Part shown: positions 2,613-60,440 of the stretch, piece by piece
Layout of the letters: each line of letters opens with the position of its first letter
Numbering within the stretch: the first letter of the stretch is position 1
IMG/VR virus record: IMGVR_UViG_3300009431_000014
Span: 1 to 64,000 of that record
Origin: a virus
Length of the DNA: 64,000 nucleotides
Direction: 5' to 3' (one strand)
The notes under the pieces: model-generated
Told to the model about the DNA's origin: nothing
The model's database searches: none
What the model saw: only the letters and a program-made list of their open reading frames with translations
Position numbers and translations under genes: made by a program

Positions 2613-3207
2613 TCCAGAAGATGTCGGAAGATTCTATCGGATCTTAATTGTCGATTACGCTGGGTTCTACAGAGAACCTAAACCGAAGGATTATGTTTAC
2701 TGGAAGAAGGTCACTAAACTTTGTGAAGAGAATGATTACGATTATCGATTGCTAATGATCGCTCACTTCGAGTATCATAAGAAACATTACAATTCTCACC
2801 CTTATCCGAATATGTTATATGGGAGTAGTTCTCCACAGAGATACGAGAGTTACGTTGAGTCTTTGTTGGCGAGGTATCCGAATGGGGATTTACCTTTGAG
2901 AGCTCTATTCGAGACGTTCTCGATTATCCATCAAGTGGAGAATGATTGTTATCGTATAAAACTAATTGCTCAGAGTTGTGGATTGAGTAGATTCGATGCA
3001 GCGATCTCGATATTTTACGAACTCTCTCCATACATTAAATTGCTTGAACCGAAATTGACAAGCGTGTTGAGACAGTTGAAGGGTAGTAAGACTGCTGACT
3101 GTCGTCAGGCACAGAAACTTTTATATAAGAATCGGGGACTTAAAGGAATGATTCTAGAAGTCCTCAGGAGGGAATTCCATGCAAGATCATTATCGATTCG
3201 ACCATGA
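2602..3207 (+). CDS. Hypothetical protein (201 aa)
   Basis: The start is set at ATG 2602; a TTG at 2596 is also possible. The protein is helical and rich in Tyr, Arg and Leu, with no motif I recognise. It lies between two replication genes and overlaps both, so it is probably co-translated with them. Its end overlaps the GIY-YIG gene start by 29 bases. Confidence 0.65.
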   Translation: MVVNPEDVGRFYRILIVDYAGFYREPKPKDYVYWKKVTKLCEENDYDYRLLMIAHFEYHKKHYNSHPYPNMLYGSSSPQRYESYVESLLARYPNGDLPLRALFETFSIIHQVENDCYRIKLIAQSCGLSRFDAAISIFYELSPYIKLLEPKLTSVLRQLKGSKTADCRQAQKLLYKNRGLKGMILEVLRREFHARSLSIRP

Positions 3208-3793
3208 TCGTTATGGGTATGTCTATAAAACAATCAATCTTTTGAACGGTAAAGTTTATATCGGTCAACATAAGAGTCGTCAGTTTAATCCAAATTATTA
3301 TGGTAATGGTCTTCGTAGTAGCAATGCGATTAATAAACATGGTAAAGAACATTTTAAAGTTGTAGTAGTGTGCTGGGCTTCTAGTAAGGAAGCGATAGAT
3401 AGATTAGAACGTTCCCATATCGCTAGAAGTATACGACTCCTTGGAGAAGAGAATGTTTATAATATCGCACCTGGAGGTGAAGGTGGTTGTAGTCCTGGAA
3501 AGAAAGCTCACACTTTCGGGAAGCACTGGAAGCAGTCTTTAGCAGCTAGGAAAAGGAGATCTATCACTCAAGTTGGAGCTAAGAATGCATTTTTCGGGAA
3601 ACACCATACTGCGGAATTCAGGAAGAAGAAAGCTGAGGGAACTCTAGGGAATAAGAACGCTAGTGGTAAAAGATCTTTAGAAGCTGTAAAGAACATGACG
3701 GGTAGGAAGGATCCTCTAGGGACTAGATTAAATAAGAGCATTGCTCAACGAAAACGGAGAGCACGAGAGAAGGAGATCCATGCTTCAGGATAA
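3179..3793 (+). CDS. GIY-YIG homing endonuclease with NUMOD3-type repeats (204 aa)
   Basis: The N-terminus carries the GIY-YIG signature as GYVYKTINLLNGKVYIGQ (residues about 13-30). The C-terminal half holds repeated Gly-Lys-Lys/His elements (HTFGKHWK, AFFGKHH) typical of NUMOD3 DNA-binding motifs. Free-standing enzymes of this type cut DNA site-specifically and spread by recombination (family knowledge). It sits between two overlapping replication genes. A smaller relative lies at 15325-15795, sharing a CWASS-x(4,6)-D-x-L-E block. Confidence 0.85.
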   Translation: MQDHYRFDHDRYGYVYKTINLLNGKVYIGQHKSRQFNPNYYGNGLRSSNAINKHGKEHFKVVVVCWASSKEAIDRLERSHIARSIRLLGEENVYNIAPGGEGGCSPGKKAHTFGKHWKQSLAARKRRSITQVGAKNAFFGKHHTAEFRKKKAEGTLGNKNASGKRSLEAVKNMTGRKDPLGTRLNKSIAQRKRRAREKEIHASG

Positions 3794-5063
3794 GTATAAT
3801 TTTGATATGAAGTTCCAGCAGCTGATATTAGCTCTATTCTTAAGAGAGTCTAACTTCTTGTTGGGACAGCGGTCAGTCATCCATTCTCATTTCTTTGAGA
3901 ATCCAATCCATCAAGAGATCTGTAACCATCTCTTAAAATATTTTGATAAGTACAAGATCCTCCCGACTTCTCCAGCTCTCAAAGAGATGATGTTAGAGTC
4001 TGTTAAAGGGGAGTCTGTAATCCACGGACACCTTCAAGAGCTTATGAATCTCTACAAAGTGAATCTGGAAGACAAAGACTTCGTGAAGGATAAATGTGTC
4101 GAGTTCGCTAAACACCAAGCTCTCAAGGTTGCTATCTTGGATTCTGTAGATCATCTTGAGAAAGGGAACTATGGGAGGATCAAGAAGGCTGTGGAGGATG
4201 CTCTCAAAGTTGGTGAAGATATGTTGAATCTGGGACGTCTTTATATCGAAGAACACGGATGTATCCAAGAAGGTGAGGACGTTGAGGTGGGTGTGATGCG
4301 TAATTATGTACCTACTATGTGGAAACAACTCGATGCTACGTTACGTGGAGGGTTATACAAGAAGCAGTTAGGAGTTATCATGGCTCCAGCAAAGGTAGGC
4401 AAATCGGCTACTTTGGTGAATCTAGGAGCGACAGCTATTCAGATGGGTAGAAAAGTCTTCCATTATACTTTAGAGTTAGGAACGGAATTCCTCTGTGAAC
4501 GTTATGATTCAAGGATCAGTGGGATCCAAACTGAGGATCTCAGAGGCTCTGCTAAAGAGATTCGGTCTAAGATTGATGTTATTAAGGCTCGGAAGGGAGA
4601 AGCAGTCATAAAAGAGTATCCTACGAGACATGCGAGTGTCAGTACTATTCGAGCTCACATTGAGAATGTCCGAGCTTCCAAGCAGTTAAGTCCTGATCTG
4701 ATCATCGTAGACTACGGAGACCTCCTCAAAAGCACAATAGGTTATGGGGATAATCGGTATCGTGAGTTAGGTTCTGTTTTTGAAGAGTTAAGAGCACTTG
4801 CCTTCGAATACGATATCCCAGTTTGGACAGCTACTCAATCCAATCGTGCTGCAGCAGAGAAACCGATTATTCGGTTGCAAGATATCGCTGAGAGTTATGA
4901 GAAAGTGATGGTTGCAGATATTATTATTGCTCTTTGCCAAACTGCAGAAGAGAAACAGAAGGAAGAGTTAAGGATGTTTGTTGCAGGAAATAGAACTGGT
5001 CATACTGGTGCAGTGATCAGATGTAAATTCCACCCAAAACAGATGATTTTAAGAGAGGCTTAA
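3780..5063 (+). CDS. Replicative DNA helicase, DnaB/gp41-like (427 aa)
   Basis: A RecA-fold SF4 helicase that unwinds the fork and loads primase. Walker A is APAKVGKS (residues 202-209), with the usual first Gly replaced by Ala. Walker B is LIIVDYGDLL around Asp311, followed by WTATQSNR. The helical N-terminal region (1-120) matches the DnaB partner-binding domain. ATG 3780 is chosen for its AAGGAG; a longer TTG start at 3741 lies inside the endonuclease gene. The primase is encoded 1.6 kb downstream. Confidence 0.85.
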   Translation: MLQDKYNFDMKFQQLILALFLRESNFLLGQRSVIHSHFFENPIHQEICNHLLKYFDKYKILPTSPALKEMMLESVKGESVIHGHLQELMNLYKVNLEDKDFVKDKCVEFAKHQALKVAILDSVDHLEKGNYGRIKKAVEDALKVGEDMLNLGRLYIEEHGCIQEGEDVEVGVMRNYVPTMWKQLDATLRGGLYKKQLGVIMAPAKVGKSATLVNLGATAIQMGRKVFHYTLELGTEFLCERYDSRISGIQTEDLRGSAKEIRSKIDVIKARKGEAVIKEYPTRHASVSTIRAHIENVRASKQLSPDLIIVDYGDLLKSTIGYGDNRYRELGSVFEELRALAFEYDIPVWTATQSNRAAAEKPIIRLQDIAESYEKVMVADIIIALCQTAEEKQKEELRMFVAGNRTGHTGAVIRCKFHPKQMILREA

Positions 5064-16891: not shown

Positions 16892-16928
16892 TTGGTTGCC
16901 ACGGAAGTAACTAAGTAAGGAGGAAGTT

Positions 16929-17291
16929 ATGAAACTAGTACTAGTAGAATCAAGTAACTTGTCAGCTATCGCTTATGACGAAGTTAACAAGAAGTTGTAT
17001 GTTCAATTCAGCAGTGGCGGGATCTATTCTTATTCAGATGTAATCCCTGAGGTTCATGAGCAATTCATGGTGTCAGAATCGAAAGGTCGATTCTTCCACG
17101 CTAACGTGAAGAGTGCTGGGTATAAATACCAAAGGTTAACTGAAGAAGAGATTGCACTACTCTTCGGTGTTGAGAAAGAGCCTGAGACCACTCCTGAGCC
17201 TAAACCAGAACCTGAGCCTGAGGCTGGTGCCGAAAATTCGGCAGGAGCTCCTGAGCAGGAAAGTGGAGCGAAGAATGAGCAAGGTGACTAA
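16929..17291 (+). CDS. KTSC-domain protein (120 aa)
   Basis: Residues 5-75 have the KTSC pattern: VESSNLSAIAYDEVNKKLYVQF, GIYSYSDVIPEVHEQFM, SKGRFFHANVKSAGYKY. Function of the domain is not established, although it is often linked to nucleic-acid enzymes. A Glu/Pro-rich tail follows. The start is behind TAAGGAGG. Confidence 0.75.
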   Translation: MKLVLVESSNLSAIAYDEVNKKLYVQFSSGGIYSYSDVIPEVHEQFMVSESKGRFFHANVKSAGYKYQRLTEEEIALLFGVEKEPETTPEPKPEPEPEAGAENSAGAPEQESGAKNEQGD

Positions 17292-17478
17292 AAGGAAGTT
17301 CGGAGTCAACCGAATCAATATGAGTATGGAACAAGGCAACCTCATTTGTGCAGAATGTGGACATCGAGCAGGACTTCATTACGGGAATGAGTGTCCTACC
17401 AAAGTGGTTGGCACTGGTAAGCCTCTACCGAAGAACGAGAAGATGGCTGCATGGGCGAAGGAGCACCTGAATGATTAG
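17275..17478 (+). CDS. Small zinc-binding protein (67 aa)
   Basis: ATG 17275 is chosen (MSKVTKRKFG…) because upstream codons lie inside the KTSC gene. CAECGHRAGLHYGNEC is a likely zinc knuckle. It overlaps both neighbours. Confidence 0.55.
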   Translation: MSKVTKRKFGVNRINMSMEQGNLICAECGHRAGLHYGNECPTKVVGTGKPLPKNEKMAAWAKEHLND

Positions 17479-17812
17479 ATGTTACTTCTGTAGATGGGTC
17501 GGGATGTACTGCATCAAAGAACAGTGCTTAGAAGACAACATATTCAGATTCTCGTTGAAGCCTTTATGGGGATTACTGATGCAGAGAGTGAGACTTTTGA
17601 AGATATACTTCAAGAAGAAAGCCACACAGCATAAGCCAGACTACTATACAGGTGGATATTACACTCCAGGAGTAGACCCAGAAGTAACCTGTTGGCATTG
17701 TAAGAAAACGTTTCTTTGTGATGCCATGGATGCAACTTGTCGTTTATGTGGAGCACCTTACGATAAAACTAGATGCGAAGAATTCAAATTCACGCCTAAG
17801 GAGAACCAATGA
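17471..17812 (+). CDS. Zinc-ribbon protein (113 aa)
   Basis: Cys pairs at the N-terminus (CYFC, CIKEQC) and two CxxC pairs later (CWHC, CRLC) suggest two zinc sites. No family was recognised. It overlaps the previous gene by 8 bases. Confidence 0.55.
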   Translation: MIRCYFCRWVGMYCIKEQCLEDNIFRFSLKPLWGLLMQRVRLLKIYFKKKATQHKPDYYTGGYYTPGVDPEVTCWHCKKTFLCDAMDATCRLCGAPYDKTRCEEFKFTPKENQ

Positions 17813-46363: not shown

Positions 46364-48172
46364 ATGGATTTCTTCGGATTCAATAAACAGAAGGATAAGA
46401 TCTTTAAGAAACCGATAGATGTGCCTGTGGGTACAGCTAAGAAGATGTTTGATCCTGCACAAGCTCAGGACATCATGAAATATATAGCTTCTACTGGCTC
46501 TTATCTTGATTCGAATCAGATGAGACAATATATCGCTAACGCACTAGCAATCGGGTACTTCAGAAGAACATTCTACAGAGAGTGCGAAGCTTCACTAGAA
46601 CATCCACTAGTACTCGGAGCTGTGTTACTCTATGTAGATGCAGTAACAGCTATGAGCTCACTTACCAATAGATCAGTCTGGGTTACTTCCGAAGACAAAC
46701 AACTTGAGAATCTACTCAATCAATTCTTAGAAGATGTCAGTGTTGATGAACGTCTCCGTGATTGGGCAGGTCAATTAGCAGAATATGGTGACTACTTCAT
46801 CGAACCTATAGGTAAGGACGGATTAGGAGTCACTTACCTAGATGATAATATTCATCCAGCTGATATGGAACGTATAGACATCAATGGTAGACTAGAAGGT
46901 TTCGTACGTACTGGACAATATGGTCAACAGACTACAGTCGAATCATTCTTAGAACCACCTTGGAAGTACGTTCATTTCCGTACATTCGGCTTGAGGAAGC
47001 GTACAATGCATACGACCTTCGGACTGTTCGGGCAACCAGATCAAGGCGTACAGTACCAAATTGTACAGGGAAACCAAGGTTATAGAGTTACTACTCGTTA
47101 TGGAACACCTATTATAGCACCTTCAGTGCCAGTATTCAAAAGACTCAAAATGTGTGAAGATAGTGTATTAATGAGTAGATATACAAGAGGAATACTATGG
47201 TATCTATATCATATCAAAATAAAAGGAGGCAACTTCGACTCTGCTTCAGCTCTAGCTAAGGCTTATGCTACTCTACTTAAGAGAAGACAATCGATGTCCG
47301 TAGATGGATCAGATCAACAGTGGAAGGATCGATTCTCACCAGTGTTCGGTCAAATTGAAGATGTATTCGTACCTGAGTCGGATGATATGGAAGTTACGGT
47401 AGATAAAATGGGTGGTGAACCAGACATAAGAGCTCTCGCAGATATTGATCTGCTTACTAATCAATTACTCGGAGCACTGAGAGTTAGTAAGTCTATGCTG
47501 GGAATTACAGATGATCTACCTGGAGCATTCGGTGAGAGTGCAGCTAGACGAATAAGTATTAACTTCGCTAAGAATGCACACACATTACAGGACGCACTTA
47601 ATGCTGGTCTTAAGAGACTCTGTCAGATACACCTTGCTTATCTCAATAAGAATCCTGACCCGAGTAGATTCGAATTGAACTTCGCAGCTATAAGCTCAGC
47701 TGAAGAAGAGGAGCTCAAGAATGGTTTAGATACGGGGGTTGATGTAGCAGAGAAATTAATAGAGCTCATTGGTTCTCAAGTAGGTGAGGAGAATCTCAAG
47801 AAGGGTGAGCTATTAGATTACATCAACCAGAAGATACTTAAGTTGGATGATCTTGACCTAACTAAGTTAGTGAAGAACCCAGAGGAGTTAGATTATGCTC
47901 TCCAAGATATTAAAGCTAAGGAGTCATTCAAGAAAAGATTGCCTAAGTCAATTAGTGGAGATCTGTATTCATACTTACCAGTAGTGAATGGGAAGAAGAC
48001 GGAATTGACAGAAGCTCAGATAAAAGCTAAGGTTGATCCTAAGTCATTGAACCAGCCGTCTCAAGTATTCAAGCTCAATGAGACAGGCAAGCTCAGTAAG
48101 ATCACAAGGGAATGGAAGCCTAGCAAGTTGAAGCTTAATATTAAGGAAGAGAATCAGGAGGCAAATAAGTGA
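46364..48172 (+). CDS. Portal protein, gp20-like (602 aa)
   Basis: Forms the dodecameric DNA-entry ring. Recognised from order after the terminase, from length, and from RYTRGILWYLYHIKIKGGNFDSASALAKAYATLLKRR, which resembles the stem/wing region of gp20 portals. LGALRVSKSMLGITDDLPG is another typical segment. The stop overlaps the next gene's GTG. Confidence 0.82.
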   Translation: MDFFGFNKQKDKIFKKPIDVPVGTAKKMFDPAQAQDIMKYIASTGSYLDSNQMRQYIANALAIGYFRRTFYRECEASLEHPLVLGAVLLYVDAVTAMSSLTNRSVWVTSEDKQLENLLNQFLEDVSVDERLRDWAGQLAEYGDYFIEPIGKDGLGVTYLDDNIHPADMERIDINGRLEGFVRTGQYGQQTTVESFLEPPWKYVHFRTFGLRKRTMHTTFGLFGQPDQGVQYQIVQGNQGYRVTTRYGTPIIAPSVPVFKRLKMCEDSVLMSRYTRGILWYLYHIKIKGGNFDSASALAKAYATLLKRRQSMSVDGSDQQWKDRFSPVFGQIEDVFVPESDDMEVTVDKMGGEPDIRALADIDLLTNQLLGALRVSKSMLGITDDLPGAFGESAARRISINFAKNAHTLQDALNAGLKRLCQIHLAYLNKNPDPSRFELNFAAISSAEEEELKNGLDTGVDVAEKLIELIGSQVGEENLKKGELLDYINQKILKLDDLDLTKLVKNPEELDYALQDIKAKESFKKRLPKSISGDLYSYLPVVNGKKTELTEAQIKAKVDPKSLNQPSQVFKLNETGKLSKITREWKPSKLKLNIKEENQEANK

Positions 48173-48297
48173 GTAAGAGGTACAGTTCCGTATTAGCTTG
48201 TGTATGGGATATGCCGACTAACTTAAGATTCAAACTCAAGTTAACTTATGTGATACTACTCAAGAAGATTAGAAGGAGATTGACTGATGAAGGATAA
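48169..48297 (+). CDS. Small basic protein (42 aa)
   Basis: GTG 48169 follows CAGGAGGCAAATAA and overlaps the portal stop (GTGA): MSKRYSSVLACVWDMPTNLRF…LTDEG. Highly basic in the second half. It overlaps the next gene by 11 bases. Confidence 0.5.
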   Translation: MSKRYSSVLACVWDMPTNLRFKLKLTYVILLKKIRRRLTDEG

Positions 48298-48694
48298 AGT
48301 TACTCAGAAATATACGAAGCTCCATAGTCTCTATTCTGGTACCAAGAATGAAGCAATCAATAAGGTACTCAAGGAAGCAGAGAACTCTATCCTTGAGAAT
48401 CGTTATGATGAGGCAGATAAATTACTGTCTACCCTGAAGACCAGAGAACAGTTGATTGATAAGATCATGAGTTACATCCATGGTAAGCCAGTACATAAGA
48501 CATTGAAGAGAATCTCTGAGGGTAAGATAAAGAATCCTTATGAAGCACTGACTGGACTCAGCTCGTTGTTCACACATATATGTATTGAAGCGGAGCGTGG
48601 TTCTACTGAGTATCATGGCATTCTTAGAGAATTGAATCTGAAGGTTGGTAAGTTACTTAATTTAGAGATAGATATAAACGAGGCTTTAAAATGA
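48287..48694 (+). CDS. Hypothetical helical protein (135 aa)
   Basis: AGAAGGAGATTGACTG precedes the ATG. All-helical, with IDKIMSYIHGKPVHKTLKRI. No family was recognised; position suggests a head or core component. Confidence 0.55.
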   Translation: MKDKVTQKYTKLHSLYSGTKNEAINKVLKEAENSILENRYDEADKLLSTLKTREQLIDKIMSYIHGKPVHKTLKRISEGKIKNPYEALTGLSSLFTHICIEAERGSTEYHGILRELNLKVGKLLNLEIDINEALK

Positions 48695-48856: not shown

Positions 48857-49237
48857 ATGAGTGACTTATTAAAGAAGTTACATGGAGTACACGAATCGAT
48901 ATTGCCAGACAATATTCAGACATTAGCGGATAAGATCCATCAAGACTTATCAGCATCCGCTGGGAACACTAGTTATCGTTATGATGGTGGTGGAATCAAA
49001 GTCAAGATAGGCGATATCCAGGACACCGATTCTGAGACAACATACGGAGCTATCACAGTAACTCTCAATAGGAAAGAGTTAGGACTCGATCCTACTAAGG
49101 AACAGATGCAAGCTATTGTAGATAATATATTCGGCACACATCCTGGCATGCAAGTCTATGGTGGTAACATCCAAGACTTAAGAGTTGACAAAGACATTAT
49201 CCAGTTGGAAGTCAATGATGTAACGGTACCGATGTGA
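48857..49237 (+). CDS. Head-region protein with tag-like N-terminus (126 aa)
   Basis: Starts MSDLLKKLHGVHES, a looser form of the MNKMLKxLQE tag of the next genes. The rest is a compact alpha/beta domain (GGGIKVKIGDIQDTD…). AAGGAGGATGTATA precedes the ATG. Likely a head internal or core protein by position. Confidence 0.55.
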   Translation: MSDLLKKLHGVHESILPDNIQTLADKIHQDLSASAGNTSYRYDGGGIKVKIGDIQDTDSETTYGAITVTLNRKELGLDPTKEQMQAIVDNIFGTHPGMQVYGGNIQDLRVDKDIIQLEVNDVTVPM

Positions 49238-49243
49238 GGGATC

Positions 49244-49543
49244 ATGAATAAGACTGAGTTAAAATACGGGAGAGAATGGGTAGCACGAGCAGCTTCACTT
49301 ATAGCGAACCTACTCTATTCAGCATGGCGTGATCTCGTTATCGAGACTGATAGTGACGTAGATCCGAGGGTCTTCTTTGAGAGTGAATACTTACTGAGTA
49401 TCCATCCGACTAAAGCGGACTGGCTCGAGATAGTCTATAAGTTCTTCATGTGGGAAGTAACAGGACGCAGAACGTACACTACCGATTTCGAAGACTACGC
49501 AATGGGTGGTCTGGGAGCATTAAAGGAAATGTATAATGAATAA
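49244..49543 (+). CDS. Hypothetical protein (99 aa)
   Basis: Helical, aromatic-rich (ADWLEIVYKFFMWEVTGRR). Begins MNKTELKYG, which is not the full tag. It overlaps the next gene by 8 bases. No family was recognised. Confidence 0.5.
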   Translation: MNKTELKYGREWVARAASLIANLLYSAWRDLVIETDSDVDPRVFFESEYLLSIHPTKADWLEIVYKFFMWEVTGRRTYTTDFEDYAMGGLGALKEMYNE

Positions 49544-50300
49544 GATGTTAACAGCTTTACAAGATGTAATCGACATACAAGTAGCTGAGCCTACAGTGAA
49601 GAAGGATCCCTACATGAGAGGCATGGCTAATGGTCTACTTTGTGCTCAATCAGTACTCACTGGCATTGAGCCTAACTACATTACCCAGGAGAGACTATTG
49701 AAGCAATTACAAGAGACGCCATTCGAGACTGAGCAAGAACAATTCTTTGAGGAGAGAACGAACAAACACATCGGCTTAGTTAAGGAAGTAATAAGTCAAT
49801 TAGTTAATAAGATGCCAGAACTCTCTGATCTTACTGCAAGAGGTGAGATACATGATGCAAGTAAATTCGAAGAGCCAGAACGTACTCCGTATATCTCTCT
49901 TACTTGGAGACACAAGTTGGAGAAAGAGAATGGTGAGCATGACCCGTATCATGATAAAGGTTATCAGACACCTGGCATGTTGACCAAAGAAGATGAGAAC
50001 AAAGCTACCCTACATCATGTGACTACTAATTCTCATCATCCTGAATATCATTTGACAGATAAGAGTGACGCAAATATAGATGCTGAGGACAGGGACAAAT
50101 CAGTACAATGTATTGATGCGAGTGCGATGGGGGAGCTTGACGTATATGAAATGGTTTGTGACTGGGTTGCGATGAGTAGAGAGTTAGGTACGAATACTGC
50201 AAGACAATGGTTCGATAAGCAACAAGGAGTCAGGTGGCAGTTCTCTGAGCACCAAGTTGAGCTAATTGATAAAGCATTGAAGGTATTAGAAAATGAATAA
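49536..50300 (+). CDS. DUF5662-like protein with capsid-tag-like N-terminus (254 aa)
   Basis: The tag is MNKMLTALQDV. Residues about 75-220 match DUF5662: KHIGLVKEV, IHDASKFEEPE, TTNSHHPEYH, VYEMVCDWVAMS. The conserved His/Asp/Glu set suggests a metal enzyme, perhaps a hydrolase, of unknown substrate. If the tag works as proposed it is packaged and injected with the DNA. Confidence 0.62.
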   Translation: MNKMLTALQDVIDIQVAEPTVKKDPYMRGMANGLLCAQSVLTGIEPNYITQERLLKQLQETPFETEQEQFFEERTNKHIGLVKEVISQLVNKMPELSDLTARGEIHDASKFEEPERTPYISLTWRHKLEKENGEHDPYHDKGYQTPGMLTKEDENKATLHHVTTNSHHPEYHLTDKSDANIDAEDRDKSVQCIDASAMGELDVYEMVCDWVAMSRELGTNTARQWFDKQQGVRWQFSEHQVELIDKALKVLENE

Positions 50301-50346
50301 GATGCTAAAAAGATTACAAGAAGTAACTCTAAGCGAAGAGAAGGAC
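50293..50346 (+). repeat. N-terminal tag DNA repeat, copy A
   Basis: The first 54 bases of this gene match 51461-51514 at 52 of 54 positions. Confidence 0.8.
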
Positions 50347-50835
50347 TCTGAAGCTATTATTGAGTTAGAGGGTCAGATAACAGAACTCGAAGTGCAGCCT
50401 TCTCCAGGTGAGAAAACTGCACTTGAATATCTGCATAAGGCGGTTGATCATTTGAAGAGTGGTGATACCAATTCCGCTGTTCATCAGATTGATCGTATTC
50501 TCAAGGATGGGGCGATCAATCCTCATCGGTTAGATACCTTAAGAGACCTCCGTGATAAGTTAGCAGGAGATACAGCGTCTCGACTAGGGTTCTTGAGTTT
50601 CAAGAGTCAGTCGGCTATCGATAGAGTGTTCGGTGAAGGTAAGGCTCCTAAGGTGGAACCTAACCGAACATATCGCATTCTTAAGAAAGATCGTTCGGCT
50701 TCTAGACATGCGGGGACATATATCTATTACACCATAGAAGTGGATGGGGAGGAATACCGTTTCGATTGGAACTCAACACGTGAAGGTGACCGTCTCTCTG
50801 CCATCGGAGTGGCGTTCACGAAGGAGGAGAAATGA
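50293..50835 (+). CDS. Tagged head-region protein A (180 aa)
   Basis: N-terminus MNKMLKRLQEVTLSEEKD; Leu8-Gln9-Glu10 fits the Leu-x-Glu cleavage rule of T4 gp21-type proteases. Then a helical region, and a beta domain from about residue 120 (NRTYRILKKDR…YYTIEVDGEEYRFDW). No known family. ATGA-type overlaps at both ends. Confidence 0.6.
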   Translation: MNKMLKRLQEVTLSEEKDSEAIIELEGQITELEVQPSPGEKTALEYLHKAVDHLKSGDTNSAVHQIDRILKDGAINPHRLDTLRDLRDKLAGDTASRLGFLSFKSQSAIDRVFGEGKAPKVEPNRTYRILKKDRSASRHAGTYIYYTIEVDGEEYRFDWNSTREGDRLSAIGVAFTKEEK

Positions 50836-51464
50836 ATAAGATGCTAAAGAAACTACAAGAAGCTAAGTTCGATGAACACCGAGGATACCTTTCTAATGCA
50901 TTGGATCAAATAGGACTCAACTATCAATCAGTCTACTATCTTCAGCGTGGTAGTCACGTATTTGTGATATACAATTCTGGGGATGAGAGCAAGGAATACA
51001 AGCTCTCAGAGATCCTGTCAAGTGCTGTGTATGATAGACTCAGTGATTATTTGCCTCCATCAGATGTTGAGATGATTAAAGCTGGACAGAAAAGGTTCAC
51101 TCGATACACGGATGCGAGAGAACCACTGATTCGGAATACTTCCAAGGTTGTGGTTATCGATCAGAATGGTAAAGTCAGAGATGAGATCGAGGAGAGAAAA
51201 TTAAAAGAACAGTATCATGTTTCTCTGGTCTCTGATAATGGGAAGTATCACCTAGAGGATCCCAAAGGTAGAACCTCTTCAACCCAGGATAAACCAGGGA
51301 TGACACAATTACTCAGAGCTATCGGAGCTAGGAAATCAGGTGTCAGCGTACAAGATCTCAGCACCTTTGTTGATAAAGCTGGGAAGACTCAAATTGATGT
51401 AGATCCTCGTAGACTGTTCGAGTTGATCCCACAATTCCGACCTGATAAGAAGGAGAAGAAATGA
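50832..51464 (+). CDS. Tagged head-region protein B (210 aa)
   Basis: N-terminus MNKMLKKLQEAKFDEH, again with Leu-Gln-Glu at 8-10 followed by Ala. Two alpha/beta parts follow (SVYYLQRGSHVFVIYNSGDES; VVVIDQNGKVRDE). No family was recognised. Confidence 0.6.
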   Translation: MNKMLKKLQEAKFDEHRGYLSNALDQIGLNYQSVYYLQRGSHVFVIYNSGDESKEYKLSEILSSAVYDRLSDYLPPSDVEMIKAGQKRFTRYTDAREPLIRNTSKVVVIDQNGKVRDEIEERKLKEQYHVSLVSDNGKYHLEDPKGRTSSTQDKPGMTQLLRAIGARKSGVSVQDLSTFVDKAGKTQIDVDPRRLFELIPQFRPDKKEKK

Positions 51465-51514
51465 ATAATATGCTAAAAAGATTACAAGAAGTAACTCTAA
51501 GCGGAGAGAAGGAC
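51461..51514 (+). repeat. N-terminal tag DNA repeat, copy B
   Basis: Near-identical to 50293-50346 (two differences in 54 bases), while the genes diverge immediately after. Confidence 0.8.
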
Positions 51515-52132
51515 ACTCCAGAGCTGATTAAAGAGTCAACCGAGTACTGGGAGAACTTGTCACAAGCAGACTTCGCTAGTAAGATCGAGGATCTCAGTCA
51601 AGATAGTCTCAAAGAGTTAGCAACCAAACTCAAGGGTGAAAGATTGGACCTAGTAAATAAAGCTCTCAAGAAGACATCCCCAGTAGGTGAGACCCTCAGC
51701 GAAGATTGGGCTAGCAAAGAGTTCCAAGAGCTCTCCCATAAGCTGATGCCACCGCAGGGTCCAGCTGATACAGTTGAGGGCGAGTTATTGAGAGCAGTGA
51801 ATAAGTTAGTCTATCGATATTATAATGACGGAGACTATTTCTACCAAGGTTACGGAGTACACACTGCAGGAGCACCAGTAGCATTCTTACTCGATATGGC
51901 AGCTAAGCTACACATTGAAGACTTAACCAATTTAATTGATAAAGCAGTCGGTCTCACTGATGACGAATATGAAGGTGCACTCCGCTATATTGAGGAAGCA
52001 GTGCTAGCTTATGTGAAGAGCAAAGAGGGTAAGTATACTGAGAACCAGTATGACATGCTTTCGAAGACTTACACTAAGTACGCTAACTCTCAGTGGGATT
52101 CATCTGAGGGTGACGAAGAAGAGGAGTATTAA
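51461..52132 (+). CDS. Tagged head-region protein C (223 aa)
   Basis: N-terminus MNNMLKRLQEVTLSGEKD with Leu-Gln-Glu at 8-10. The remainder is all-helical (FASKIEDLSQDSLKELATKLKG; YEGALRYIEEAVLAYV) with a Glu-rich end. No family was recognised. ATGA overlap with protein B. Confidence 0.6.
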   Translation: MNNMLKRLQEVTLSGEKDTPELIKESTEYWENLSQADFASKIEDLSQDSLKELATKLKGERLDLVNKALKKTSPVGETLSEDWASKEFQELSHKLMPPQGPADTVEGELLRAVNKLVYRYYNDGDYFYQGYGVHTAGAPVAFLLDMAAKLHIEDLTNLIDKAVGLTDDEYEGALRYIEEAVLAYVKSKEGKYTENQYDMLSKTYTKYANSQWDSSEGDEEEEY

Positions 52133-52134
52133 TT

Positions 52135-52512
52135 ATGGATCCATTAAAGGACGCTTTCATTGATACGGTTTGTAAGGATATGGTTGGTATTCCCGAGGAG
52201 TCTAAGGAGACCAAGTCGTCAGCTGATCCACTTAAGGATTCATTTGTAGGTGAGGCTATTAAGGATCTCAATGGTGGAGCTCCCGCAGATAACCAGAAGG
52301 TTAACAAGAGCTTGACCGATGTAGGTGCTTTGCCTGAGGGGGACGCCAAACGAGAGCACCTTCTAAATAATTTCGCTGAGTCGGTATTCAGCGGTAAGCC
52401 GACAGATCAGCAGACCACCCCAGAGAAGGAGGTCAATGTTGAATCGGTAAAGTCAGACGCAGATAAAGAATCACAATCGGTATTAAGAAACCTGTTAAAG
52501 GGACTAAATTAA
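52135..52512 (+). CDS. Hypothetical acidic protein (125 aa)
   Basis: Contains two copies of a short repeat: DPLKDAFIDTVCKDM at the start and DPLKDSFVGEAIKDL near residue 31. Low complexity, probably flexible. Likely head core component by position. Confidence 0.5.
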   Translation: MDPLKDAFIDTVCKDMVGIPEESKETKSSADPLKDSFVGEAIKDLNGGAPADNQKVNKSLTDVGALPEGDAKREHLLNNFAESVFSGKPTDQQTTPEKEVNVESVKSDADKESQSVLRNLLKGLN

Positions 52513-56464: not shown

Positions 56465-56794
56465 ATGATGCTGACAAAAGAACAGATGGAATTTCTTCGA
56501 GGTGTACATTACGGAGGTTGTATGGCTGAGCAGTACTTGAAAGCTAATGAGGGAGAGTCTATCGAAAGATTCTTCGAGCTCCGAACACAGCCTTATCAAG
56601 GTGAATTCCATAAGCACTTCCGAGCAGGAGCATGGAGAGGACTACTACATATATTGAATGTGGTCGGCTATTTTAGAAAGCATAATCTTAAATGGGAAGA
56701 GTTATTCAATAAACAGAATCCTAAGCAAGAGGATAATCCAGAACCATGGGTTCAGGATCCAGACTATTGGAAACAATCAGGAGGAGAGAAATGA
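56465..56794 (+). CDS. Hypothetical protein (109 aa)
   Basis: ATG 56465 (MMLTKEQMEFLRGVHYGGCM…) follows AAGGGGTAAGATT. Helical with FHKHFRAGAWRGLLHILN. It overlaps the protease gene by 4 bases. No family was recognised. Confidence 0.5.
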   Translation: MMLTKEQMEFLRGVHYGGCMAEQYLKANEGESIERFFELRTQPYQGEFHKHFRAGAWRGLLHILNVVGYFRKHNLKWEELFNKQNPKQEDNPEPWVQDPDYWKQSGGEK

Positions 56795-58950
56795 AGAAGA
56801 TAAAGCAGATTGTTGAACGCTTTGTAGCGAAGGGTACTATTCTCGAGGCGGATCGCAAGAAGTTATCAGAAGGAGTATTGTGCAAGGTTAAATACCCTAT
56901 CTGTAACGTAGGTGAGCTTAATAAAAATAATCGTATGTATGAATGGGCAGTATGGGACGGTGTAAGCCAAGACCAAGATGTCCAGGACAAACTCGGCAAT
57001 AGGACTATGTTCGCTCAAGAGGAGCACCCTGAAGAGGGTTCTTCCACTCGGACAGACAGAATAGCTGGTATCGTTACTGAGATTGTCGAAGATCGTGCGA
57101 ACAGCAAAGTCCATGCAATCTTTGAGATCTTAGATACTCCATACGGTCGAATCATCGATACATTGTTGAAAGCGAACTGCGGTATTGGAGTGTCCACTCG
57201 AGCAGAGGGAGAACTTGACGAGGTAGAGGAAGACGGTAAGAAATACCATCGAGTTATCCCAGAGAAGTATAAGCTCGTGACGGTCGACTTTACAGCAGAT
57301 CCATCGACCTACGGAGCTTACCCAGAATCTGTTGAGCAGAACATTGTCACCATCGTGCAGAAGGGGATCCAAGAGGAGAAGCTCGATCAGAAGTTCGCTA
57401 TCACGCTACTCGAGGGGTTCAAATGCAAAGATGGTAAATGTCTGCTTGAGACGTTGAAGAAGAACGAATCGTTGGAGTCCGTTCTTGAGCTTGAGGTAGA
57501 CGCATACGGCAAGAAACACAAGGTCAAGGATATGCTGGAGAAACTCAGCGATGAGCAAGCTTCTGATATGTTCTCTATGCTAGCGGAAGAGATGATGCAG
57601 TCAGGTCTTCTAGAGGGTGACCTCCCAGATGTCACCGAAGAACTCAAGAAGTTCTTCGAGATTAAAGAGCTCGGTGAGGGAGTCACACTTACCGCAGAAG
57701 GTCCAGATACAATGAGTTTTGACATCAACGGTAAGAAGTATGAGTACTTTGGAGTTGAGAAGGGTTGGATGGAGAAGATCAAGAAGATGCTCAAATACGG
57801 TCAGGGCTTCAATGCGATACATTGGTTGAATAAGTTCGTGCCTAAAAAGAATATCTACCGTATCGAGGGTGAAGGTAAGAATATGAAACGAGTCCCCATC
57901 GTTGCCCAAGAGGAATCAGTTAAAGAGAACCACGAGGGCTTAGTGAAAGCTATCAAGCAGTTCGGGGTAACTATCAGTTCCAAAGATGGCGACTTCAACA
58001 GTGCTCCAGATGAAATAGAGGATCTCGAAGTGAAGGATGGTGTGCTGTATCTGACACCTCGTGGAGGGAATGTCATACCTTATCGAATCGGTTCTTGGGA
58101 TCAAATAGGTGACAATGCGGTTACACTTAAAGCAGAAATCGGTGAGTCAATCAAGGAAGGACTTGCTGAGGTGGATTTCGCAACGCTACTTGCTAATATC
58201 AAGAATGTGACCAAGGATGCGATTCTCAATAAGGATGAACAGAGACTTCTCAAGGAATCCAAGACAGTTGTTGACTTCATCGAGAACGCACTGAGCTTAG
58301 TTAAGAAGTATCGTGAGCATGAGGTGTTGGCTGAATCGACTACAGAGACTCTCAAGGAGAACGCAGAAGGTCGTATTGGTGAGATCACTGAGCGATACGC
58401 AACAGATGTGATGGAAGCTGAGATAACTCGTGTTAGACTGGCGACACTCTGCAAGGAGATCGATAAGCAGTTTGAACAGTTCAAGAAGGATCATGAAGCT
58501 CAGGTGACCCGTATGGTTGAAGATCACCAAGCGGAGATTACGGAAGCCAAGAAGTCTATCGCAGAGAAGACTGTTGTGGAGATCAAGAAGGTTTATGATT
58601 CCAAGATGAAACAACTCCAGAATAAGTTTAATAAAGAGACGAAAGCTCTTGAGACCAAGTGTGCTCAGGAGATTTTTAATAAAACAGTTGTGGAGACTGC
58701 AATCGCAGATTCAGGATTGCAGTTGCCAACGAAAGCTGTTGATGTGCTGAAGCAGTGTTCATCCCGTGAGGAAGTGAACAAGATGATCGCTGAGTTCAGA
58801 GTTCGATTAAAAGAGAGCCTACTACACTCTGGTGGGGTTTCCGAAGTGAAGGTCAATGAGACCGTACCGTCTACCGATGACTCTATTATCGGTGGGAAGA
58901 TGCTTAATGTAACTAAACGTCTTATCAAAGACGTTTCTAAAGGTTCATAA
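56791..58950 (+). CDS. Prohead protease-scaffold fusion (719 aa)
   Basis: Residues 1-180 are a gp21-type (U9/S80) prohead protease: FAQEEHPEEGSS (His79), CGIGVSTRAEG (Ser135), KLVTVDFTADPS (Asp166 or Asp170). Spacing is close to T4 gp21. Residues 180-460 are an unassigned insert with two alpha/beta parts. Residues about 470-690 are a long charged coiled coil, as expected of scaffold (gp22-like). T4 encodes these separately. ATG 56791 has AGGAGGAG. Confidence 0.78.
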   Translation: MKKIKQIVERFVAKGTILEADRKKLSEGVLCKVKYPICNVGELNKNNRMYEWAVWDGVSQDQDVQDKLGNRTMFAQEEHPEEGSSTRTDRIAGIVTEIVEDRANSKVHAIFEILDTPYGRIIDTLLKANCGIGVSTRAEGELDEVEEDGKKYHRVIPEKYKLVTVDFTADPSTYGAYPESVEQNIVTIVQKGIQEEKLDQKFAITLLEGFKCKDGKCLLETLKKNESLESVLELEVDAYGKKHKVKDMLEKLSDEQASDMFSMLAEEMMQSGLLEGDLPDVTEELKKFFEIKELGEGVTLTAEGPDTMSFDINGKKYEYFGVEKGWMEKIKKMLKYGQGFNAIHWLNKFVPKKNIYRIEGEGKNMKRVPIVAQEESVKENHEGLVKAIKQFGVTISSKDGDFNSAPDEIEDLEVKDGVLYLTPRGGNVIPYRIGSWDQIGDNAVTLKAEIGESIKEGLAEVDFATLLANIKNVTKDAILNKDEQRLLKESKTVVDFIENALSLVKKYREHEVLAESTTETLKENAEGRIGEITERYATDVMEAEITRVRLATLCKEIDKQFEQFKKDHEAQVTRMVEDHQAEITEAKKSIAEKTVVEIKKVYDSKMKQLQNKFNKETKALETKCAQEIFNKTVVETAIADSGLQLPTKAVDVLKQCSSREEVNKMIAEFRVRLKESLLHSGGVSEVKVNETVPSTDDSIIGGKMLNVTKRLIKDVSKGS

Positions 58951-58967: not shown

Positions 58968-60440
58968 ATGTTAGACGTAAAGAAATTAGCGGAACAACGC
59001 AGAACGGAGCTCCGCAGACGTCAGGTTGAGTCTCTTGGTCGTTGGAAACCCTACATCGACATTGTAGAAGGCTTCTACAAGGATGAAGGTAAAGAACTGA
59101 AAGAATATCAGAAGGCGAACATAGCCCAGTGCTGTGACAACCTTTTTGATTTCTATGTTCTTAGTAAAGTCAACGAGGGACTCTCCGAGGCGACTACTTC
59201 AGACGCAATTGCGTTTGCAAGGCAGATGCTCCCAACTATCCCTGCATTGCTACCGAGCTTGGTTGCAGACCACGTATCTATCGTTCAGGCGATTGACAGA
59301 CCTCAGGCTCAGGTCTATTATCTGAACGTTAAGGCTGCTACTACAAAGGGCAACATAACAGCAGGTGATACACTCATCGGGGCAACAACAGGTCATGCTG
59401 CAAGTGAAGGTGCAAGAGGTTACGCATCAGACGTGGTTTATTCGGAAGCGAATATTCCAGGTACAGGTGCTCAGACCCTAACACTGGATCCTGTCGCTAA
59501 CCTACCGATGATCGCAGGTTCGATCGTAGTAGTAGCTACTACCACCGTTGCAGCAGTCCAGGCTATTGAAACATTCTCAGATAACGGTGATGGCACGCTA
59601 ACTGGTGATAGAGGTTCAACTGGTACTTACACCGTAGCAACGGGCATCGTGATCTTAGATGCAGGTGTTGGTAATACTGTAGACGCTGTCGATACAGCCG
59701 TAACTTACAGATGGAACGTTGAATCCTACCCAGAGGGAATTGGCGGACTCGACCTCGAAGTTACCTCAAGTAACGTCGATGCGAGAGTATTCCCGTTGAA
59801 ACTCAACTATAGTGTAATGTCAGCAATCTTGCTCCAGAAGGTGCATGGCTTCGTGCTGGCAGATGAGGGTATGAAGTTCTCAACTCAGGAAATCAGATTT
59901 GCAATCGATCAGCTAGTATTGAATGAAGCTCTTGTAGCTTCTCAGGCTGCTGGTGCTGCAACATCTCCTGGTAACTTCGATACCGCTATAGGAACAGGTC
60001 AGGAGTGGATTTGGAGAGCTCATCAGATCAAAAGGTACTTCAGCAAAGGATCAGCTAACATCTTTGCGAAGACTCTACGTGCACAAGCGAATGTCATCAT
60101 CGGTGGCATCAACGTTTGTTCATTAATAGAGCAGTTGCCTGAATACAAACCTGCTGCAGGAATTGGTACGAAACCGCCTGCAGGTCCTTATGTACATGGT
60201 ACATTGGGTTCAAGGTTAGTGATCTGCAATCCGTTCTACAATGCAGATACTTATGTTCTCTGTTTCCGTGGGGACAACTATCTGTATGCAGGATTGATTT
60301 ATGCTCCATACGTACCGTTATATGCAACCGACCCAGTCACATTGGCGAATTTACAAACCCAGCGTGGTTTCATGTCAATGGCTGCGATCAAACGCATCAA
60401 TGATGGTATGTTTACTTACGGCACAATCTCGAATTATTAA
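58968..60440 (+). CDS. Major capsid protein, gp23-like (490 aa)
   Basis: HK97-fold capsid protein by order after the protease and by QVYYLNVKAATTKGNITAGD, like the gp23 strand that follows its proteolytic site. GLSEATTSDA gives Leu72-Ser73-Glu74 followed by Ala, a fitting gp21-type cleavage point that would remove a 74-residue delta domain (T4 removes 65). A beta-rich insert (about 155-250) may be surface-exposed. A terminator-like hairpin follows. Confidence 0.8.
   Translation: MLDVKKLAEQRRTELRRRQVESLGRWKPYIDIVEGFYKDEGKELKEYQKANIAQCCDNLFDFYVLSKVNEGLSEATTSDAIAFARQMLPTIPALLPSLVADHVSIVQAIDRPQAQVYYLNVKAATTKGNITAGDTLIGATTGHAASEGARGYASDVVYSEANIPGTGAQTLTLDPVANLPMIAGSIVVVATTTVAAVQAIETFSDNGDGTLTGDRGSTGTYTVATGIVILDAGVGNTVDAVDTAVTYRWNVESYPEGIGGLDLEVTSSNVDARVFPLKLNYSVMSAILLQKVHGFVLADEGMKFSTQEIRFAIDQLVLNEALVASQAAGAATSPGNFDTAIGTGQEWIWRAHQIKRYFSKGSANIFAKTLRAQANVIIGGINVCSLIEQLPEYKPAAGIGTKPPAGPYVHGTLGSRLVICNPFYNADTYVLCFRGDNYLYAGLIYAPYVPLYATDPVTLANLQTQRGFMSMAAIKRINDGMFTYGTISNY

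Follow-up and report, generated by a model that had tools for sequence, protein, structure and literature searches.

A private N-terminal tag on unrelated head-region proteins of uncultured phages, a probable T4-type capsid-targeting sequence

INTRODUCTION

Why should four adjacent phage genes, whose products are otherwise unrelated, begin with nearly the same ten residues? The question is raised by the window, a 64,000-nt stretch of a 69.9-kb IMG/VR record, in which genes 49536, 50293, 50832 and 51461 (named by their first nucleotide) share the start MN[KN]MLxxLQ[ED]. A precedent is the capsid-targeting sequence of the T4 internal proteins (Mullaney and Black 1996, as summarized in PMC9026906). 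According to that review, the first ten residues of IPIII are enough for packaging, gp21 cleaves after L/I-x-E, tag residues 4 and 7 have a part in targeting and residues 8 and 10 in processing, and an Asp at position 10 prevents the latter while leaving the former intact (PMC9026906). Further internal proteins of T-even phages were found via their common tag (Repoila et al. 1994, as cited in PMC12373910).

RESULTS

The tagged genes lie in a head module of T4 order

In the window, the portal gene is followed by the protease gene and then by the major capsid protein gene, as in T4. The relevant features are as follows (a slash within a sequence marks a candidate cleavage position).

46364..48172 (+): T4-type portal protein (gp20 homologue; Portal_T4, 3.4e-15; phrog_1497, 8.5e-20)
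48287..48694 (+): small conserved protein of the head cassette, 135 aa (homologues, mostly close to the portal or protease gene, in 13 relatives)
48857..49237 (+): putative cargo protein whose tag is looser, MSDLLKKLHGVHE/S (from sequence, hydrophobic-x-E/S at residue 13)
49536..50300 (+): tagged DUF5662 protein, MNKMLTALQD, Asp at position 10 (PF18907, 1.9e-27)
49536..49565 (+): tag codons 1–10 of gene 49536, MNKMLTALQD
50293..50835 (+): tagged protein MNKMLKRLQE/V, 180 aa, body without known family
50293..50322 (+): tag codons 1–10 of gene 50293, cut predicted after E10
50832..51464 (+): tagged protein MNKMLKKLQE/A, 210 aa, body without known family
50832..50861 (+): tag codons 1–10 of gene 50832, cut predicted after E10
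51461..52132 (+): tagged protein MNNMLKRLQE/V, 223 aa, body without known family
51461..51490 (+): tag codons 1–10 of gene 51461, cut predicted after E10
56791..58950 (+): gp21-type prohead protease, extended C-terminally by a long scaffold-like region (phrog_207, 8e-23)
58968..60440 (+): major capsid protein (gp23 homologue; Gp23, 9.4e-27), candidate protease site GLSE/ATT

An earlier note on this DNA had described the shared start on the four genes, together with a looser version on 48857, and had placed them between portal and a gp21-like protease; the open reading frames are exactly as described, and the matches to Portal_T4 and phrog_207 flank them. Leu8-Gln9-Glu10 was likewise confirmed in three of the genes, the fourth (49536) having Leu8-Gln9-Asp10, and the bodies proved as unrelated as had been claimed, the sole BLASTP similarity being residues 1–23 of 50293 and 51461. 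The first 54 nt of these two genes are identical at 52 positions, after which no similarity is left, as expected for a tag copied onto a new body. The window thus has a short N-terminal sequence common to otherwise unrelated proteins of one phage, as in T4. Neighboring genes overlap by 4 to 8 nt at ATGA/ATGAATAA. In the 69.9-kb record, the tag DNA pattern has only three occurrences (reversed control pattern, 0), the exact tag pattern matched 11 stretches across the sequence collection, and only the three LQE genes in the whole window match M..ΦΦ..Φ.E (Φ, hydrophobic). Gene 48857 begins with MSDLLKKLHGVHES (MSDLLKKLHG as residues 1–10), similar to MSDLLTTLLE/A of the relative L080; by its sequence, the site VHE13/S fits better than residue 10, and its product may be cut after E13. 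A single-sequence AF2 model of the 50832 protein reached a pLDDT of 69, and no close relatives of this protein were found in the viral contig collection.

The window protease matches the profile Peptidase_S77 at E = 0.001, below the Pfam cut-off, and 5jbl at E = 0.04 only. Its His and Ser at the catalytic positions align with T4 gp21 GELNHPP and GVSSRG; the window therefore encodes what T4-type capsid targeting calls for, a gp21-family protease with intact catalytic residues. The N-terminus of the protease, MKKIKQIVE-9, is itself tag-like, with IVE-9 where T4 gp21 has LIE-9. Among relatives, gp21-type proteases vary from 533 to 1545 residues (1545 aa in L118). Because the C-terminal extension of the window protease is long and coiled-coil-like by eye, protease and scaffold may be one polypeptide. 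Capsid proteins across the clade conserve (L/V)-x-E/(A/T)TT just ahead of the conserved domain. The 48287..48694 product is possibly a prohead core component, and so possibly is that of 52135–52512, a small protein that is internally repeated (DPLKDAFIDTVCKDM / DPLKDSFVGEAIKDL) and resembles a gene of L004.

N-terminal sharing exceeds chance

The gene set comprised the genes called in the window and in 38 loci with relatives of its portal (~40 uncultured phages; L numbers designate these loci). Relatives were reached by searching with the portal, the protease and the bodies; a search of genome contigs with the portal profile gave no matches. We compared residues 2–10 only between genes with BLAST-unrelated bodies, with a threshold of at least 5 of 9 shared residues and with genes upstream of the portal as the control. 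Within genomes, 37 of 1,972 unrelated pairs downstream of the portal reached the threshold, compared with 2 of 6,070 upstream (57 times more often). These pairs are not independent, as many come from L005 and the window, but the signal stems from eleven loci. Between genomes, the corresponding counts were 96 of 50,424 and 24 of 140,512. All six pairs among the tagged genes of the window share 5 to 8 of the 9 residues. The consensus M..ΦΦ..Φ.E was present in 19 of 333 downstream genes versus 1 of 609 upstream, and in 8 of 308 versus 1 of 533 when the window and L005 were left out (p = 0.002). Homologous bodies in different phages have, on average, 1.1 of 9 N-terminal residues in common.

Relatives carry private tags of their own

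Many of the ~40 portal-sharing uncultured phages have a tag of their own, which is common to several unrelated proteins encoded close to the portal gene. L005 has MKKLLExLLE (e.g., MKKLLESLLE) on LRR proteins as well as on unrelated proteins of 86, 91 and 638 residues, and its contig contains 16 DNA matches to the tag pattern ATGAARAARYTNYTNGAR (first six codons; reversed control, 0), which adjoin the portal, protease and capsid genes. The tags of other relatives are MNELLDRLLE/A (L020), MNKLLNQLVE (L023), MNEFEKVLDLVE/S (L030), MSKFQELHKVVKE/S (L043), MDNQFEDLLDKMNE/A (L050), MSLEKDITSLKKIME/A with variants across a run of genes (L052), and both MSDLLTTLLE/A and MKDLLDNLLE/A (L080). No recognizable tag set was found in L004 or L006. 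The cultured distant relatives Listeria LIS04, Bacillus SP-15 and Maribacter Colly have the same head genes as the window and, from portal to protease, nothing that is evidently a cargo array.

Some arrays hold further elements. Between full tagged genes of L005 lie a bare tag ORF (4291–4330; MKKLLENLCKEEV, then a stop) and a short tag-like remnant (3201–3279; MRELLESREIILYQDGR...), as if tags get copied and decay. The tagged array of L052 includes an untagged GIY-YIG/NUMOD3-like gene of homing-endonuclease type (16901–17593). The 246-kb L072 record, a huge-phage contig, has KLFEQFI 17 times, on both strands and scattered, nearly always at the start of LRR-type paralogues (MKHIKLFEQFISEE...); one other body (MYKVKLFEQFINEA...) carries a KLFEQFI variant.

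Tags and bodies have been swapped, and selection acts on the peptide

The earlier note had proposed a search of relatives for swaps of tag and body, and this search came out positive for the HAD-like, DPTSQKKY, LRR and DUF5662 families. The leader of the DPTSQKKY family is MKKLLEFLIE in L005, MSLENDVTQVMAQLHE in L052 and MISQLLEFIDKELNE in L054; the leaders of the HAD-like protein differ between L027 and L040, and the L020 version lacks one, despite a body identity above 50%; and the LRR family has at least five different leaders across the relatives. Since the tag on homologous bodies changes from phage to phage, swaps of tag and body have taken place; the tag is independent of the body, as in the T4 system.

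The DUF5662-like identity that the note had given to one tagged protein stood as well, gene 49536 scoring 96.2 bits against PF18907 (cut-off 27), above the Pfam gathering score. Its DUF5662 body has a counterpart with 65% identity in L047, where the N-terminus is different; the L047 gene (18806–19894) has an extra N-terminal domain fused ahead of the DUF5662 domain. By eye, DUF5662 has His/Asp residues in an HD-like pattern. We found no close relatives of the window protein in the viral contig collection and no DUF5662 in cultured phages, and a fold search with its AlphaFold2 model (pLDDT 60) returned nothing usable.

At several tag positions, all codon differences were synonymous: 18, 27, 10 and 28 pairwise codon differences at K2, L4, L5 and E6 of the L005 tag, 10 at E15 of the L052 tag, and 3 each at L5 and L8 of the window tag. 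This synonymous-only variation implies that selection acts on the peptide, and a purely DNA-level or translation-start reason for the repeat was rejected on the same ground.

A candidate gp21-type cleavage motif ends most tags

A hydrophobic-x-Glu motif with Glu at residues 9–16 was found in 29 of 35 tagged genes versus 122 of 538 controls (23%; p = 7e-13), and the enrichment persisted with one gene per locus (median p = 1.5e-5). No enrichment was seen in tagged genes for hydrophobic-x-D or x-Q, nor at residues 20–27. In many tags, the motif is followed by Ala, Ser or Gly. The site is absent from some tagged genes, namely, those of L031, L005:3308 and one of two in L054, and 49536 is without Glu10. 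In the window, L/I-x-E stands at the tag end (residues 8–10) as LQE in three of four genes, with LQD in 49536. The T4 record gives MKTYQEFIAE/A for IPII and IPIII, MAKINELLRE/S for gp24 and LIE-9 for gp21, each either in the same register as the window tag or directly beside it.

The targeting positions differ, the window tag having Met4 and Ala, Lys or Arg at position 7 where T4 has Tyr4 and Phe7. Position 4 is hydrophobic; because of position 7, the docking face is not identical to that of T4. The window tag probably works like the T4 tag but is a different sequence family. As Asp10 in T4 permits targeting and blocks processing, we predict that the DUF5662 protein is packaged but uncut at residue 10.

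Tagged proteins of relatives include enzyme families

Domains recognized in the tagged proteins of relatives include ART-PolyVal (1.2e-9) and GNAT (3.8e-5); LRR proteins are tagged as well. T4 Alt is a packaged ADP-ribosyltransferase. Tagged ADP-ribosyltransferases of the ART-PolyVal type lie near the portal at L027:14230, L022:14382 and L030:14764, a parallel to Alt. This tagged ART-PolyVal, GNAT and LRR cargo would fit injected effectors such as Alt and the internal proteins of T4. Each of the three T4 internal proteins disarms a different type IV restriction enzyme (PMC12373910).

DISCUSSION

We consider it very probable that the shared N-terminus is a T4-type capsid-targeting sequence, which would recruit cargo to the prohead core and be removed after L-x-E. 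This reading, put forward in the earlier note, survived every feasible test (the swaps, an L-x-E register equal to that of IPII/IPIII and gp24, and the retained His and Ser of the protease); only the site had to be refined, with Asp10 in 49536 and VHE13/S in 48857. The sequences themselves show the common tag, its clustering in the head region, selection on the peptide, the swaps, the enriched cleavage motif and the encoded protease; packaging, cleavage, injection and cargo function we infer by analogy with T4. A scaffold core would form on the portal, and the first ~10 residues (M-x-x-Φ-Φ-x-x-L-x-E), probably an amphipathic helix, would dock unrelated cargo onto this core before the shell closes around it. 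A gp21-type protease would then cut after hydrophobic-x-Glu and free the cargo from the degraded core, leaving it in the head with the DNA to be injected into the next host, where it would probably serve take-over or counter-defence. The private tag of each lineage would presumably be matched to its own scaffold, and a lineage would gain new cargo when a tag copy is attached to another body. Several observations count against this reading: the residue at position 7 is unlike that of T4, 49536 and some tagged genes of relatives (L031, one of two in L054) are without the site, L004 and L006 are without a recognizable tag set, and the pair counts draw heavily on L005.

The alternative we take most seriously, though we judge it unlikely, is that the tag serves head targeting or core binding and always stays uncut; the proteins would then be structural parts of the core or stay tethered in the head. 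Asp10 in 49536 and the missing sites in L005:3308 and L031 agree with it, as does the finding that Asp10 in T4 stops processing and not targeting (PMC9026906). It does not account for the strong, Glu-specific enrichment of hydrophobic-x-E in the tags, for the Ala, Ser or Gly that so often follows, or for E15 of L052 changing synonymously only. Far less likely is that the proteins are diverged paralogues whose N-terminus is the most conserved remnant of common ancestry: the LRR genes of L005 are indeed true paralogues with a common tag, but the abrupt end of DNA similarity between 50293 and 51461 (52/54 identical, then nothing) argues against it, as do recognizable unrelated families that bear one tag within a phage and other tags elsewhere.

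We give even less credence to two further explanations. The repeat might act at the nucleic-acid level, as a copied element for translation initiation or coupling (ATGAATAA overlapping the preceding stop) whose peptide has no role, which would suit the 4- to 8-nt gene overlaps and the near-identity of 50293 and 51461 over their first 54 nt; however, codons drift synonymously while residues stay fixed (L5 and L8 in the window; K2, L4, L5 and E6 in L005), and the residue pattern recurs in different phages although the underlying DNA is unrelated. Equally improbable is a dimerization or docking helix for another assembly, such as a tail, membrane or nucleus-like shell, instead of the prohead core. 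The pattern is amphipathic-helix-like and the docking partner of the tag is putative, but tagged genes are grouped with those for portal, protease and capsid, and the motif fits the specificity of the encoded protease family.

Beyond the window, we lean, with some reserve, towards a clade-wide set of lineage-private head-address codes, in which each lineage would have its own tag-scaffold pair and a stock of interchangeable, fast-changing packaged effectors (ADP-ribosyltransferases, acetyltransferases, HAD-like, LRR and DUF5662 proteins). The opening minutes of an infection are decided by proteins that enter together with the phage DNA. If capsid targeting is correct, reading the tag would list the injected proteins of never-cultured viruses, so that anonymous genes would become candidates for counter-defence or take-over. 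Protein-delivery work would also gain new packaging tags that differ from one another, and the private tags predict that tag and scaffold co-evolve.

The principle is already known from T4; new are the private tags, the cargo arrays in the head operon, the different cargo and a distant lineage with a different tag. In T4 IPI–IPIII, as here, ~10 N-terminal residues are common to unrelated bodies, L/I-x-E falls at residues 8–10, and cargo varies while the tag is kept, with homologues of gp20, gp21 and gp23 encoded in the window. The tag is M..MLxxLQE here versus MKTYQEFIAE in T4, without an aromatic residue at position 7; the cargo genes lie between portal and protease here and elsewhere in T4; and each lineage here has its own tag and different cargo families. 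T4 gp24 (MAKINELLRE/S) shares L8-x-E10 with the window tag, but gp24 belongs to the shell and gp21 is the protease, and neither is cargo. SPN3US gp53 and gp54 are similar in having identical first 15 residues, diverged bodies and cleavage motifs inside, whereas the giant-phage protease specificity is A-x-E and SPN3US propeptides are mostly long (PMC5694885). In phage P1, an N-terminal signal of DarB suffices to carry a reporter into the head, yet the Dar proteins are without a common consensus and P1 is without a T4-like scaffold (PMC9024508). Finally, polyvalent proteins, too, are effectors predicted to be injected and contain ART among other enzyme domains, but they unite many domains per chain, whereas the phages described here use separate proteins with a common tag (PMC5512222).
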